A DNA stretch of 64,000 bases from an uncultured Saprospiraceae bacterium (GTDB lineage: Bacteria; Bacteroidota; Bacteroidia; Chitinophagales; Saprospiraceae), in NCBI GenBank assembly GCA_937929945.1, contig CALFUK010000010.1, forward strand, positions 1 to 64,000, read 5' to 3'. Position numbers and translations under genes: made by a program. The notes under the pieces were generated by a model that was given only the letters and a program-made list of their open reading frames with translations, did no database searches and had not been told where the DNA came from. Positions 27,942-33,044 of the stretch are shown here, piece by piece. The first letter of the stretch is position 1, and each line of letters opens with the position of its first letter.

Positions 27942-28484
27942 TCAGGTGGACAGGCAGTAGATGGCGTCTAAGTCTCTGCCCATACCATCAAAATCAAGAC
28001 CATATCCGATGACAAAATCATTCGGAATTTCAAAGCCGATGTAATCGATCGGATTTGGTTTTTGGACGGCATCAGGCTTGAGCAGCAGGCTGAAGACCTT
28101 GACAGACAGAGGCTTCTGCAAGCGTATTTTTTGTAATAAGAAGTCCAGTGTGATGCCCGTATCGATGATGTCTTCTACGATGAGGATGTGTTTGCCTTCC
28201 AGTTTGATCTTGTCGAAGCCCATCTTCTCCTCTACGACATGCGTGGTCTCCATGCCAGCATAGGAGGTGTATTTGACAAATTTGACGTCGACACTAGACT
28301 TAAGGTATCGGCACAGGTCTGCTAATATGATGAATGCACCTGTCAGATTGCCCACCATGAGTATGTCACTCCCCTCATAGTCTTGGTCTATTTCTTGCGC
28401 TAATTCTTTGATACGGGCCTGTATCTTCTCGCTCGAAATGTATTCTGCAAATGTCTTTCCGTTGACTGTTATTTTATTCTCCAT
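27942..28484 (-). CDS. hpt: Hypoxanthine phosphoribosyltransferase
   Basis: Purine salvage enzyme transferring phosphoribose from PRPP to hypoxanthine or guanine in the cytoplasm. The PRPP-binding motif HILIVEDIIDTGITL and the substrate elements KYTSYAG and IPNDFVIGYGLDFDG are typical of type I HPRT. Length is about 180 residues. I take the ATG at 28484 (MENKITVNGKTF); another ATG three codons earlier (28493) is possible. Either start overlaps the stop of the upstream M28 peptidase gene (11 or 20 bases), so the two are translationally coupled. Confidence 0.96.
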   Translation of the reverse strand: MENKITVNGKTFAEYISSEKIQARIKELAQEIDQDYEGSDILMVGNLTGAFIILADLCRYLKSSVDVKFVKYTSYAGMETTHVVEEKMGFDKIKLEGKHILIVEDIIDTGITLDFLLQKIRLQKPLSVKVFSLLLKPDAVQKPNPIDYIGFEIPNDFVIGYGLDFDGMGRDLDAIYCLST

Positions 28485-29910
28485 CGATTCCATATTTATC
28501 CAGTAAGTAGACGAGGCTTGACATGGCTGCTGCCCCGAGTTCGAGCTCTCGCTGATTCACAGCTTCGATTCTGTCGATGGCTGTGTGATGATAGTCAAAG
28601 TATCGCTGAGAGTCTGGCCGCAGACCGAATAAGAGGCCTCGCTGTGACTTTAGCGGATTGATGTCGGCCCCACCGCCTCCAGGCGTCAGCTCTACACCAT
28701 AGCTGCTCAGCATATCTCTCCAGGCCCTGACGGCAGGAAATTTTTGCTCGAAGATATCTTTATCTCCACCGACGGCCAAAGCTCTGGGCGTAAATCCTCC
28801 CGCATCTGACTCGATGGCTGCCATATGGTATTCTCCTTTCTGGTTTGACTCAGCGGCATAGGCGAGGGCGCCGCCGAGGCCATTCTCTTCATTCATAAAC
28901 ATGACGCACCTCCAGGTCCGCTGGGGCTCGTATCCCAGCTCGAGCAGTGTCACCATGGACTGGATGCTGTGCACACAGCCAGAGCCATCATCATGGGCTC
29001 CACCTCCGATATCCCAGCTATCCAGGTGTCCGCCGACGAGTATGATCTCTTCAGGGTATTTGCTGCCCTTGATTTCGCCAATCACATTGTAAGACTTTTT
29101 ATCTGCTTTCAGTTCACAGTGATTTTCCAAGTACAGTGTGACATCCTCGTGCTTCATCAGGGCAGACAGTTGGTCGGCGGCATTGGTACTGATGGCCATC
29201 GCTGGGATGAGCCGATCTCCTTCGCCGAAGACTGTCACGCCAGTATGCGGTATGTCATCAGCTCTCGTCGTCATAGATCTGACGATGGCAGCCGCTGCTC
29301 CCATAGAGCTTGCTTTCGCAGGACCTGAGCCTCGCTGATCCACTGCTCCACCGTAGGCTCTGAAGGTATGCAGCTGTGTGGGATCCATGGGCCGATTGAA
29401 AAACACGATTTTACCATCTACATCAGCAGGATCGAGCTCCATCAGCTCATCTAAGGACATCACTTCGATCACTCGGCCTGTGATGCCTCCAGGGCCAGTC
29501 CCGATCGAGTTGCCCAAGCTTGTCGCAGCTAATGTGATGGTCCCGATTCGCTCTGAATTGACGATTTTCGCGACCTCTGTATCACCCCTGACCCAGTGAG
29601 GGACCATGCATGGCTGCAGTGACACTGCAGCAAAGCCCTGCTCGCTCATCACCTGCTTCGTATATTCTACTGCGGCGGCAGCGCCTGGTGATCCGGCTAA
29701 TCGGCCACCAATATCCTCTGATAAGTGCGTGAGCCACTGATAACATTGGCCATTCTGAAGACTGTGGTCGTAAATATTCTTGATGAAGAATACGTCATCA
29801 TTGCCCTGAGCTATACATGGCGCGATCGAACTGGAGGTGATGACAGAGATCAGTAGGACGAAATAACAATAGTGCAGCTTGTGTATCATAAGGCGTGGTC
29901 TATGATTCAA
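28474..29910 (-). CDS. Exported M28-family zinc metallopeptidase (carboxypeptidase Q-like)
   Basis: Exported aminopeptidase/carboxypeptidase of family M28, with a signal peptide ending near PCIAQ. The metal-binding residues appear in order: His in GGHLDSWD, the bridging Asp in GAHDDGSG, the Glu pair in FMNEENGL, the Asp in IESDAGGF and the His in YFDYHHTAID. A PA-type insertion lies between about 130 and 240. The length of 478 matches PGCP/CPQ-type members. It overlaps the downstream HPRT gene. Confidence 0.92.
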   Translation of the reverse strand: MNHRPRLMIHKLHYCYFVLLISVITSSSIAPCIAQGNDDVFFIKNIYDHSLQNGQCYQWLTHLSEDIGGRLAGSPGAAAAVEYTKQVMSEQGFAAVSLQPCMVPHWVRGDTEVAKIVNSERIGTITLAATSLGNSIGTGPGGITGRVIEVMSLDELMELDPADVDGKIVFFNRPMDPTQLHTFRAYGGAVDQRGSGPAKASSMGAAAAIVRSMTTRADDIPHTGVTVFGEGDRLIPAMAISTNAADQLSALMKHEDVTLYLENHCELKADKKSYNVIGEIKGSKYPEEIILVGGHLDSWDIGGGAHDDGSGCVHSIQSMVTLLELGYEPQRTWRCVMFMNEENGLGGALAYAAESNQKGEYHMAAIESDAGGFTPRALAVGGDKDIFEQKFPAVRAWRDMLSSYGVELTPGGGGADINPLKSQRGLLFGLRPDSQRYFDYHHTAIDRIEAVNQRELELGAAAMSSLVYLLDKYGIDGE

Positions 29911-30042
29911 ATGTACAAGTAAGAATCAGGAAGGCTTTGCTTTTGAGCCGACAAATAGAGATCTGTGCGTGACAATTTGTAGGATGGATCAGGATGGGAT
30001 TAGAGCCGTTGAGGAGTATTAATTCAAAAAAAAGTCATATAT

Positions 30043-30050
30043 TAGCTTTG
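30043..30050 (+). promoter_or_regulatory. Candidate -7 element upstream of a structured leader or sRNA
   Basis: TAGCTTTG is a perfect TAnnTTTG match in the gene-free region ahead of the sigma-factor gene. No -33 element is seen at 19-21 bases. Its last two bases overlap the first hairpin described next, so the true start site is uncertain. Confidence 0.35.
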
Positions 30051-30132
30051 TGTCATTTGTACAATAAGTACGTTGACACATGGTTCCATTTGGTTAGGGT
30101 TGAGGTAATGCTTGCATTACCTCATTTTTATT
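30049..30132 (+). ncRNA. Candidate structured small RNA or attenuator leader
   Basis: Two hairpins lie in otherwise gene-free DNA between the divergent M28 and sigma-factor genes (29911-30317). The first (30049-30080) pairs TGTGTCA with TGACACA and inside it GTAC with GTAC around AATAA. After a 20-base linker comes a perfect 11-bp hairpin (30101-30124, arms GAGGTAATGC and GCATTACCTC, TT loop) followed by ATTTTTATT, a good rho-independent terminator. No plus-strand gene precedes it, so it ends either a small RNA of about 80 bases or an attenuated leader of the sigma operon. Confidence 0.45.
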
Positions 30133-30190
30133 ACAGCTTTATAAATGTAAATGCAGCGGTCAAAACGATCATTTATCTAAAGTTTTATGC

Positions 30191-30198
30191 TAACTTTG
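30191..30198 (+). promoter_or_regulatory. Candidate -7 element of the sigma-factor operon
   Basis: TAACTTTG matches TAnnTTTG, 60 bases past the terminator-like hairpin and 120 bases before the preferred sigma-factor start. It would allow the operon to be transcribed independently of the upstream leader. Confidence 0.35.
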
Positions 30199-30317
30199 TA
30201 ACTGTTAATTACGTTAATTCCCCCGTTCTGTAACTTTCTTATTTTTTTTCGTCTCAACTCATAGAGAGTGTGACACTAACCAAAATATGCGTTTTGAATT
30301 GCTATTTGTTTGCATTA

Positions 30318-30893
30318 TTGACTAAAAATATAAGTTTGACTATTTCTGACGAGGAGGCAGTTGATCTTTATTTGAAGACCCAAGACCAAAAATGTTTTGA
30401 TCTTCTATACAGTCGGTATTCATCCAAAATATTTGGTAAGTGTATCTCGATCTTGAAGGATGAGGAGAAAGCAGAGGATGCGACACAAGAGATATTTGTG
30501 AAGATCCTGCTTAATCTTTCAAAATTCAGCGGAAAGTCTAAGTTTTCTACCTGGATATATTCGATCACATACAACTATTGTATCGATTCTATTCGGAAGA
30601 GGAAGAAAGACAAAAGCGTTTTAGTTGAAGATCTGGCAAACCAGCATGATACAGCTGATGATGGTCTCGAAGATCAGTTTTTATTGGAATTAAATGTCAA
30701 AAGATTAAAAATAATCTTAGACAAAATACCGGTGACTGATAAGTCGATTTTGTTGATGAAGTATCAAGATGAATTGTCGATTAAAGAAATTAGTGAGGTT
30801 CTTGTAAAATCTGAAAGTGCGATTAAAATGAAAATTAAACGCGCTAAGCAGAAGTTCAAGAAGGTCTATAAAGAAAATTACAAAGACTCGTAA
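30318..30893 (+). CDS. ECF-type RNA polymerase sigma factor
   Basis: Sigma-70 family extracytoplasmic-function sigma factor. Region 2 covers about residues 30-85 (DLLYSRY, AEDATQEIFVKIL, FSTWIYSITYNYCIDSIRK) and region 4 about 130-185 (ILLMKYQDELSIKEISEVL and SESAIKMKIKRAKQKFKK). I prefer the TTG at 30318 (MTKNISLTISDEE); a GTG at 30270 would add 16 hydrophobic residues that ECF factors do not carry. No anti-sigma gene of a known family follows. A small unknown protein gene comes 9 bases later and an MscS-like gene after that. Confidence 0.93.
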   Translation: MTKNISLTISDEEAVDLYLKTQDQKCFDLLYSRYSSKIFGKCISILKDEEKAEDATQEIFVKILLNLSKFSGKSKFSTWIYSITYNYCIDSIRKRKKDKSVLVEDLANQHDTADDGLEDQFLLELNVKRLKIILDKIPVTDKSILLMKYQDELSIKEISEVLVKSESAIKMKIKRAKQKFKKVYKENYKDS

Positions 30894-30902
30894 AGTAACA
30901 CT

Positions 30903-31166
30903 ATGTCAAAGAATAGTTTTAAGGAATTAGCTAAAGACAATCAAAAGAATTTCGAGGGTAAGGAGAAGAGGATAAAGGAAAATATAAATCATTCGATTGG
31001 TTTTTTTCATTTCATCGGAGATATCATCGAACTGTTTGTGCCACGCGTGGTGCAAGTGTTTTTGGGGATATCAGGAGCAAAGGGCCCCAATAAAGATGCC
31101 GAGGAGGGAGGTTCAAGATCTTCCGACTCACAGGATACACCGAGGTATCCAAATACCTTAGAGTAG
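30903..31166 (+). CDS. Small protein of unknown function in the sigma-factor operon
   Basis: An 87-residue protein I do not recognise. It has a charged N-terminus (KELAKDNQKNFEGKEKR), one hydrophobic segment of about 27 residues (near 32-58, with IGDIIELFVPRVVQVFLG) and a polar Gly/Ser/Asp-rich tail. The hydrophobic stretch contains Asp, Glu and Arg, so it may be amphipathic or a single membrane helix. It starts 9 bases after the sigma-factor stop, where anti-sigma factors usually sit. That position is the only basis for suggesting a regulatory role. Confidence 0.65.
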   Translation: MSKNSFKELAKDNQKNFEGKEKRIKENINHSIGFFHFIGDIIELFVPRVVQVFLGISGAKGPNKDAEEGGSRSSDSQDTPRYPNTLE

Positions 31167-31291
31167 ATACTACACGCTTAGCTCATGATGTGCTATTGTA
31201 TTATTTACTTCCTGTTCACATAAGATTTTTAACACCTTCTTAATTAGATATTTCTAGTTATTATTTCAAAAAATTTTTAATACCGCTGAAC

Positions 31292-32092
31292 ATGTTGGAT
31301 GGATTTACTGCAGATTTACTAAAACAATTTTTAAGTGCAATTCCTAGAGTTGCTACGGCTATAGTCATTATTATCATCGGCTTTATCGTGGCTAAAATAG
31401 TAGCTGGGATCGTGAAAAAAATACTCCTGCGCATTGGAGTCGATAAGATAGGTGACAAGCTCGGCGAAATAGATATCGTCCAGAAATCAAATGTCAAAAT
31501 TGAGATAAGTAAAATCATCTCTAAGTTCATTTACTATATTTTGGTGCTATTCTTTCTGATAGCGGGTGCTGAAGCTTTAGGTATGCCAGCCATCTCTAAC
31601 TTAGTATCTGATATCATTAATTTTATTCCTAATCTCATCGTGGCAGTGATTATGCTGGTCTTGGGACTTTTATTAGCGGAGGCCCTACGGTCTATAGCGT
31701 TTACAGCGCTTAAGTCACTGGGTATCCCATCAGCAGGCATGATTGCCAGCTTTGTGTTCTACTTTATTTTGATCACTGTATTCGTCAGTGCGCTTAAGCA
31801 GGCTGCCATTCAGACAGAGTTTTTAGAGACTAACTTATCCATACTCATCGGAGGGGTCGTTGCGGCATTTGCGATTGGCTATGGTCTTGCAGCGAAGGAT
31901 GTCATCAAAAATTTTATTTCCTCTTTTTACAATAAGGGCAAAATAAATATTGGCGATACGGTGACTGTCGAAGGTGAGAGGGGAGAAATTGTAAAAATAG
32001 ACAGTACTTCAGTTACTATTCAGTCAAATGATCGTCGAATCTTATACCCACTTAGTGCAGTCTTGGGTGGGAAGATTATTATACATGATTAA
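31292..32092 (+). CDS. MscS-like mechanosensitive channel (CmpX-type)
   Basis: Inner-membrane channel of the MscS superfamily with conserved TM-helix repeats. Hydrophobic segments lie near 15-38, 70-95, 105-130, 145-165 and 180-205. A glycine/alanine-rich pore-like helix (VVAAFAIGYGLAAKDVIKNF) leads to a short cytosolic beta domain (GDTVTVEGERGEIVKI and TSVTIQSNDRRILYPLSAVL). The 266-residue length fits small CmpX-like members. The protein should respond to membrane tension or osmotic downshift by family knowledge. It is part of the sigma-factor operon. Confidence 0.88.
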   Translation: MLDGFTADLLKQFLSAIPRVATAIVIIIIGFIVAKIVAGIVKKILLRIGVDKIGDKLGEIDIVQKSNVKIEISKIISKFIYYILVLFFLIAGAEALGMPAISNLVSDIINFIPNLIVAVIMLVLGLLLAEALRSIAFTALKSLGIPSAGMIASFVFYFILITVFVSALKQAAIQTEFLETNLSILIGGVVAAFAIGYGLAAKDVIKNFISSFYNKGKINIGDTVTVEGERGEIVKIDSTSVTIQSNDRRILYPLSAVLGGKIIIHD

Positions 32093-32126
32093 AAAACAAT
32101 AAAATATTTCACTAATTACAATTACT

Positions 32127-33044
32127 ATGAAAAAGTTTACTTTAATACTTATTGCAGTATTTGCATACGTCGGCTTCGTAAATGGCCAATCTTTGGATGC
32201 AGACTTAAAAGCAAAGCAAGCTGAAATCGAGGCAGCAGAAAAAGCACTTGATATGTTGATCGAAGAAGAAGCTGCCATTGCAGCCTCAATCGAGACAGGT
32301 GCTGGTTGGTTGACAGGTTTCGGAGGAACATTAGGATTTAATTTTAACAAATCAAACGGATGGATAGCGAATCCTAATCCAGATGCAAGTTCTTCAGGAT
32401 TAGCAATTAACTTAAGCGGTTTCGCTAATAACATCACCGATGATTTTTTCTGGAGAAATAAAGGTATCCTGAACAAAGCATGGCAAGATATTGATCTTAG
32501 CTCTGCTGACGGAGTTGTAGATAATGATAAATTATTTGATAACGGTACGGTTGATTTACTGAATATCTCTTCACTTGCTGGTAAGCCGATTACTGATCAG
32601 TTAGCGATTTCAGCATTAGGTGAATTGAATACTTCATTAGGAAATTTTCTAAAGCCTGGTACATTTGACATTGGTGTTGGTTTGACTTGGACACCTAATA
32701 TAGATGACCTTATTGTTGTCGTACATCCTGTGAATTATCACTTTGCATTTCCAGCTGATGGAGCAGGTTTCGAATCTACAGGTTCTTTAGGTGCTAAGAT
32801 CAGAGCTGATTACACTCATGACTGGGATGGCTACGCACTGACTTCTACTTTGACATCATTCTTACCATACACCAGCTCAGAAGCTCCGACACCTTCACTT
32901 TTCGAGTGGACATGGTTGAATACGTTGACCTTTGATGTATGGAAAGGCGTTGGAGTAGGTATCTCTGCAGGTATCAGAAATGCAAAATTCGAATCACCTG
33001 ACGCACAATCATTCTATTCTGTAGGCCTATCTTACGCGCTATAG
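32127..33044 (+). CDS. DUF3078 outer membrane protein
   Basis: Exported protein with a signal peptide ending near VNGQ. Residues 22-55 form a Glu/Lys/Ala-rich coiled coil (LKAKQAEIEAAEKALDML). The rest is a DUF3078-like barrel with GWLTGFGGTLGFNFNKS, NKGILNKAWQDIDLSS, FDIGVGLTWTPN, VHPVNYHF, the ELNTSLG-type segments and a final beta strand FYSVGLSYAL. DUF3078 proteins are outer-membrane proteins of unknown function. It lies 34 bases after the MscS-like gene and is followed by a terminator at 33074, closing the operon. Confidence 0.75.
   Translation: MKKFTLILIAVFAYVGFVNGQSLDADLKAKQAEIEAAEKALDMLIEEEAAIAASIETGAGWLTGFGGTLGFNFNKSNGWIANPNPDASSSGLAINLSGFANNITDDFFWRNKGILNKAWQDIDLSSADGVVDNDKLFDNGTVDLLNISSLAGKPITDQLAISALGELNTSLGNFLKPGTFDIGVGLTWTPNIDDLIVVVHPVNYHFAFPADGAGFESTGSLGAKIRADYTHDWDGYALTSTLTSFLPYTSSEAPTPSLFEWTWLNTLTFDVWKGVGVGISAGIRNAKFESPDAQSFYSVGLSYAL

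Follow-up and report, generated by a model that had tools for sequence, protein, structure and literature searches.

To our knowledge few small RNAs have been described in the Bacteroidota. Here we consider an element in the gap at about 29.9-30.3 kb of what we call the window, the whole stretch of DNA analysed, positions 1-64,000 of contig CALFUK010000010.1 from an uncultured Saprospiraceae bacterium whose genome we label G000. We argue that this element encodes a small RNA, and that this RNA is probably an undescribed regulator. The nearest described system that we found in the literature is FopS/GibS. FopS and GibS are small RNAs of Bacteroides, a family marked by 12-15 paralogues per genome and by binding of RbpB; FopS, described in the Bacteroidaceae, has 14 paralogues in B. 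thetaiotaomicron and its seed at the 5' end, binds near start codons and is reported as deposited in Rfam (PMC11697453). Binding near start codons is also what we propose for the Saprospiraceae RNA. However, this RNA is not multicopy, having a single strong copy in most genomes, and it carries a 5' hairpin before its conserved core, which sets it apart from FopS as FopS is described.

Two other systems are more distant. Yfr1 of the cyanobacteria likewise has a conserved single-stranded motif between two stem-loops and is almost universal in its group, but the motif is different (UCCU in the portion mutated in that study) and the phylum is another one; a second RNA, Yfr10, shares the Yfr1 motif (PMC6778093). 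Rfp18 of Flavobacterium is a small RNA of the same phylum as ours that is conserved in its genus, and its deletion lowers two metalloprotease mRNAs. It differs, going by its description, in that its pairing is predicted to occur via the third stem-loop (PMC9723704).

The original prediction for this gap was a structured RNA with a terminator, either a small RNA or an attenuated leader of the operon downstream, which begins with an extracytoplasmic function (ECF) sigma factor gene. Comparison upholds the structured small RNA with a terminator and a start inside the gap; the attenuated leader has to be given up, as we argue below. We believe the best explanation is a stand-alone small regulatory RNA whose core pairs in trans near start codons and represses without Hfq, and we put this at a little better than even odds (roughly 0.55). 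Such an RNA would be transcribed from its own sigma-A type promoter and would terminate intrinsically just after the core, leaving a nearly invariant and mostly unpaired core of about 20 nt exposed. The core (UUUGGUUAGGG) would pair in trans with CCCUAACCAAA-like sequences at translation starts, in a phylum without a Shine-Dalgarno element. The paired mRNAs would be repressed without Hfq, possibly with an RRM-type protein, and CCUAACCAAA at gene starts is the mark they would be expected to carry. The evidence is sequence, folding and comparison across genomes, including a covariance model, R1, built from 27 aligned members that were seeded by a pattern search in 100 genomes of the family (Saprospiraceae). 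These are the features of the RNA:

30038..30050, plus strand: candidate -7 promoter boxes, TATATTAG at 30038-30045 overlapping TAGCTTTG at 30043-30050; TAnnTTTG is enriched at this position among loci
30050..30131, plus strand: putative small RNA gene, starting at 30050 or 30055; matched by R1 and supported by its fold
30050..30079, plus strand: predicted 5' hairpin with loop AATAA, from alignment A4; loop position common to 7 clade members
30081..30099, plus strand: core TGGTTCCATTTGGTTAGGG, mostly unpaired in the predicted fold, including ATTTGGTTA at 30088-30096
30101..30129, plus strand: intrinsic terminator, stem GAGGTAATGC/GCATTACCTC and then a T-run, supported by covariation

The letters on which the original prediction was built are in place. 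The TAnnTTTG match TAGCTTTG can be read directly, TGTGTCA (30049-30055) pairs with TGACACA (30074-30080) outside an inner stem of GTAC (30059-30062) and GTAC (30068-30071), and an 11-bp inverted repeat (30101-30111 and 30114-30124) runs into T at 30125-30129. Our terminator search scores the same repeat as 10 pairs with a 4-nt loop. It is also correct that no plausible plus-strand gene ends before the gap. The M28 peptidase gene starts at 29910 on the minus strand, and the single plus-strand open reading frame (ORF) over it, at 28969-29328, is antisense to the peptidase.

The terminator match alone is at chance level, with 4 terminator-like sites on both strands of 5 kb against 3.9 expected, so a single sequence is insufficient and it is comparison that establishes the terminator. 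The stem was predicted to be conserved in relatives, and it covaries. A MAFFT alignment of 27 rows, not fitted to structure, has 100% of 270 stem cells paired, and an alignment of 79 rows that was fitted to structure has 99.7% of 788; in each, both partners have changed in 8 of the 10 pairs, and in neither did any of 500 shuffles come as high. The core is better kept than most of this stem. Its consensus, UGGUUYYAUUUGGUUAGG, is nearly invariant among members, and ATTTGGTTA is invariant in 79 of 79 distinct rows. These rows come from R1 matches in 84 sources of our choosing, and many were found with a pattern that contains the core, so the invariance is partly the result of selection. In the same rows position 14 is T in 59, C in 19 and G in 1, and position 27 is C in 59, T in 19 and A in 1. 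We saw no common reading frame across the members by eye (this was not a tool-based test).

The position of the promoter decides the length of the RNA, which is about 77-82 nt from a start at 30055 or 30050 to 30131. Published work places the box at -12 to -5 of the start (PMC9723704, PMC6847099) and finds G virtually absent at -10 and -9 (PMC6847099). With TAGCTTTG at -12 to -5 the start would be 30055 and most of the outer hairpin stem would be lost, and the virtual absence of G at -10 and -9 speaks against TAGCTTTG as the box. With TATATTAG, which has one mismatch, the start would be 30050 and the outer stem would be kept; by eye TATATTAG aligns with TATCTTTA of two sister species. Of 90 loci, 62 have a TAnnTTTG box at a distance of 25-85 bases ahead of the core, against 5.25 expected from Markov sequences. 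(The loci are L107-L186 and ten sigma loci, with one genome counted twice, L003 being L111.) Many members also show, by eye, TTG about 20 bases before the box and a TACACAAAG-like stretch in the spacer. The comparison supports reading this as a sigma-A type Bacteroidota promoter. We considered and rejected a regulon that shares the promoter. Across 100 genomes 18 rows fit the pattern TTTACACAAAG-N4-TAnnTTTG, and 8 of the 18 fit it exactly; 7 of these 8 lie directly upstream of the small RNA, the exception being G004:C74.

The RNA folds better than its shuffles, with a z of -4.0 from 30049 and -2.3 from 30055. Folded from 30049 it leaves 14 of the 19 core bases unpaired, with UAGGG pairing weakly with the T-run; folded from 30055 more of the core is drawn paired. 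It has what is expected of a trans-acting small RNA, its own intergenic promoter and terminator by sequence and conservation and a conserved seed that is unpaired to this extent, less so from the later start. Many members also fold more stably than shuffles over the segment that leads from the presumed start to the core (z of -1.6 on average, and below -1 in 32 of 57). The clade of the window has a 5' hairpin with the loop AATAA or similar (7 rows). Alignment A4 of this hairpin has 84.1% of 69 cells paired and 4 pairs changed on both sides, and among 500 shuffles 3 were as high on cells paired and 35 on pairs changed. The comparison supports a hairpin that is specific to the lineage.

R1 has one strong match in the genome of the window, at G000:C10:30074-30131 (62.8 bits, E 3.3e-11). 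At E<=1e-3 it matches 64 of the 100 family genomes, 58 of the 100 strongly (E<=2.9e-8), and strong copies mostly come one per genome. G006, G007, G063, G066, G081 and G123 have weak matches only; the four we inspected all lack the full core, and G123 has an exact core letter match elsewhere that R1 missed. Sixteen of 296 phylum genomes have an R1 match, and the 3 that are strong are all within the same family. The 13 with weak matches only, at 14 places with E from 2.7e-5 to 1e-3, are a mixture by eye: L093, L095, L102, L103 and L106 show TTTGGTT-like letters before a hairpin or T-run, and L096, L097, L100, L101 and L105 show hardly any such letters. We therefore do not claim that the RNA spreads beyond the family. 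In L104, from the same order, two tandem TTTTTGGTTAAGGGTTGAGTAGTGGG-hairpin copies at about 1440-1565 are perhaps a distant relative, again by eye.

The exact core pattern occurs in at least 119 stretches of named genomes. The titles among the stretches listed include Saprospiraceae, Saprospirales, Lewinella, Lewinellaceae, Neolewinella, Phaeodactylibacter, Flavilitoribacter and Aureispira; others read Chitinophagales, one Sphingobacteriales, or only Bacteroidota, Bacteroidetes, Bacteroidia or bacterium. With Rfam 15 only a tRNA reached the gathering score in the window and nothing did in five small RNA loci, and over 29900-30340 no FopS-like family appeared at E<=10, in a release not checked for holding FopS. 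The comparison gives good support to a small RNA family that is absent from the Rfam 15 library searched. The open full-text literature, which leaves subscription journals mostly outside, yielded no small RNA of Saprospiraceae or Lewinella. A mobile or repeated element was considered and discarded, the 281-base stretch matching the genome of the window once.

The targets of the core are at present a lead. The complement of the core contains CCUAACCAAAU, and its 7-mers are 1.7-2.0 fold over Markov expectation at start regions in three sets. Perfect matches to the complement of at least 12 nt are found in 4 of 1404 start regions against 0.29 for shuffled cores (0 of 100 as high), and matches of at least 11 nt in 5 against 1.2 (1 of 100 as high); in 4212 coding-sequence windows there are none of at least 11 nt. 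The start regions come from two genomes, G008 and G086, with G086 covered over 0.8 Mb. Candidate sites are at genes for an aromatic amino acid lyase (PF00221), an E1 dehydrogenase, a hexapeptide protein, homogentisate dioxygenase, a CoA transferase, a tricorn-type protease and a 3-hydroxyacyl-CoA dehydrogenase. The E1 (L238) and hexapeptide (L237) sites share CCTAACCAAATTAAAACC, one base beyond the exact complement, and the tricorn-type site is 46-58 bases before the start that we chose for the gene. The genome of the window has its sole CTAACCAAATGA over the start codon of the lyase gene, though chance alone would give about one such 12-mer. At CoA transferase B (L186, L195) the sites consist of CCCCTAAC repeats that form a tract immediately ahead of the start codon, and we dropped them as target evidence.

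Several results weigh against pairing at start codons. Reversed 7-mers are also enriched, 1.37-1.61 fold, though one of them is itself in the complement of the core. All five matches of at least 11 nt are in G086, and G008 has none above 10 nt. Counts at 9 nt or more and 10 nt or more do not stand out from the shuffles (reached by 10 and by 13 of 100), and a third set of 673 starts has no significant excess of long matches, with 2 of at least 11 nt (13 of 100 as high) and 0 of at least 12. The result for CCTAACCAAAT before an ATG is mixed: measured against the reversed control it is commoner in genomes with the RNA than in those without, and the excess over control that had been predicted beforehand was not seen. 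Where the RNA is present, CCTAACCAAAT-N0-30-ATG occurs 143 times and the reversed control 127 times; where it is absent the counts are 47 and 88, so genomes with the RNA are near the control and those without it fall below, where equality was predicted. The Fisher test on these counts (p 7e-4) is post hoc since the prediction failed as stated, and the counts carry no control for clade and composition, may include a site twice, and had the RNA's own copies removed only where rows were printed. CTAACCAAATGA is likewise not in excess: the 100 genomes hold 80 sites and 94 of the reversed control, and the 58 RNA genomes 49 and 53. A duplex-energy target scan gave no signal specific to start regions, and the site is absent in the two testable orthologues (homogentisate dioxygenase and CoA transferase A). 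In 102 genes from loci of RNA-less genomes, too few to decide, the core scores 1 against 1.8 expected and the reversed core 6 against 1.9. Two things keep our confidence in the best explanation at little better than even: a single genome supplies the long matches, and the prediction was not borne out as written.

The weakness of the target tests, including the two orthologues that lack the site, is one argument for a different idea: an RNA-binding protein, for example one with an RRM domain, could dock on the core or be decoyed by it, so that no pairing with mRNA would be necessary. Most members have a tandem core, UUUGGUU-UUA-UUUGGUU-AGG, and it is invariant where pairing partners could drift. 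Hfq was found in 0 of 100 family genomes (the control was positive in 5 of 14), and RRM_1 was found in 14 of 20 relatives, with one protein in G000. However, G002, which carries the small RNA, is among the 6 relatives without an RRM_1 match, and a degenerate first repeat (AUGGUUC, CUGGUUU, AUGGUUU) is seen in the window and its two sister species. One strong copy per genome, the usual number, is few for a titrating sponge, and the long stretches of complementarity that G086 has at start regions also count against protein binding. We consider protein binding somewhat unlikely and prefer pairing in trans.

The neighbouring genes bear on whether the RNA stands alone. The features around it are these:

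28474..29910, minus strand: divergent M28 peptidase gene (Pfam PF04389), a conserved neighbour of the small RNA
30230..30254, plus strand: putative ECF-type promoter of the sigma operon, GTAACTTT-N12-CGTCT, a motif found before sigma orthologues
30276..30284, plus strand: CTAACCAAA in the sigma leader, a 9-nt complement of the core; candidate pairing site, not conserved
30336..30893, plus strand: ECF sigma factor gene (Sigma70_r2 and r4_2), a neighbour outside the small RNA; start codon uncertain

The constant neighbour is the peptidase. A divergent M28 gene is upstream of the RNA in 70 of 90 loci (68 after removal of overlapping ORFs), and M28 or the neighbouring phosphoribosyltransferase gene in 75; 7 of the 15 others have less than 1 kb of upstream sequence. 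The downstream side varies. Among the 84 loci that have one called, the first downstream ORF of at least 100 aa is on the strand of the RNA in 47 and on the opposite strand in 37, and it is the sigma gene in 16. The sigma operon appears to have a promoter of its own about 100 bases past the terminator. The pattern [ACT]CTTT-N11-15-CGTC occurs before 16 of 30 sigma orthologues against 0.39 expected, a pattern fitted after the sequences were read and with sites in L020 and L024 that are farther upstream than the rest; an earlier pattern with the wrong spacer gave 4 of 30 against 0.21. Several upstream regions of sigma orthologues share the 3' half of the RNA, GGTTYCATTTGGTTAGGG-TGAGGTARTGC-loop-GCRTTRCCTC-T run. 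For 21 of the 30 orthologues the preceding 330 bases lack the core (in L013 it is farther upstream). In 42 of the genomes R1 matches weakly or not at all; we sampled 30 of these, and 28 of the 30 have an M28 relative. In 24 loci from 23 of these genomes, leaving out the cut locus L405 and weak M28 relatives, there is no core within 600 bases on the divergent strand, the best having 4 mismatches in 15. At least four loci (L384, L386, L388 and L393, with L402 similar) have, by eye, an ECF-type promoter in a gap without the small RNA.

This is why we reject the attenuated leader, a cis element of the sigma operon. It is true that in the window the RNA is on the same strand and directly upstream of sigma, that sigma comes first downstream in 16 of 84 loci, and that the sigma leader holds a 9-nt complement to the core. 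But sigma's own promoter after the terminator, the opposite-strand ORFs, the orthologues without a core and the M28-sigma gaps without the RNA all contradict it, and gene order and promoters do not point to co-transcription with a conserved downstream gene. We regard the leader as very improbable. A post-transcriptional link between the stand-alone RNA and the sigma mRNA is possible. The CTAACCAAA complementarity spans 9 nt in the window and 7 nt in one of the sisters, is inconsistent among orthologues and does not amount to general pairing with the sigma leader, which we rejected.

Some observations concern the sigma operon itself. At 30270-33044 the order is ECF sigma, a small protein without a Pfam match, an MscS-type channel and a DUF3078 protein below cut-off. 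Sigma together with an MscS-type channel is reminiscent of SigX and CmpX in Pseudomonas. Another ECF sigma gene, at G000:C48:70498-71034, is 69% identical to that of the window. Two relatives, L017 (1-92) and L021 (1-84), have a contig whose first letters fall within a 5S rRNA gene that precedes the sigma orthologue; L016 and L023 resemble them by eye and have no Rfam match.

In a few genomes the core and terminator follow the stop codons of protein genes, as if these 3' ends carry the same seed. We named the genes from our own reading of the sequence, without a family search. In L226-L228, on the minus strand, the gene is of hydrolase type and is read as a PHA synthase; others are thiolase-like (L234), isopropylmalate-synthase-like (L229) and of the small heat-shock type (L236), and L231 also has a copy after a stop codon. 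L230 has a free paralogue with its own TACCTTTG. Six genomes are listed with the 17-mer core of the E1 and hexapeptide sites, 3 of them in the 3' copies of L226-L228, 2 before the starts of those two genes and 1 in coding sequence (L239).

These copies could mean that we are looking at a conserved strong terminator or 3' element and nothing else, with no regulatory function of its own. Yet the window has no plausible plus-strand gene that ends ahead of the RNA, the promoter box is there in 62 of 90 loci, and the core is better kept than most of the stem. We find this improbable. That the core is a feature of terminators in general was rejected as well: in one genome, searched over 1.2 Mb, only 3 out of 255 terminators have TTGGTT in the 30 bases before them, and one of the three is the small RNA.

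If the stand-alone RNA does pair near start codons, a larger picture can be drawn, although we hold it to be rather unlikely. The core may be the hub of an undescribed post-transcriptional network in which the stand-alone RNA and the 3'-end copies pair with the start codons of catabolic mRNAs. Among its carriers would be carbon-storage and acyl-CoA genes (PHA-synthase-like, thiolase-like) with the core in their 3' ends, and its targets would be aromatic amino acid lyase, homogentisate dioxygenase, 2-oxoacid dehydrogenase E1 and CoA transferase. Since the phylum has no Shine-Dalgarno element and the family no detectable Hfq, the pairing in such a network could cover the start codon itself.

The core is near-identical in 58 genomes of almost as many genera, which points to a central role. 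The distribution of the RNA offers natural comparisons, and named strains of Lewinella, Neolewinella and Phaeodactylibacter make testing feasible. Such work could show how base-pairing RNAs choose their targets without a Shine-Dalgarno sequence and without Hfq.
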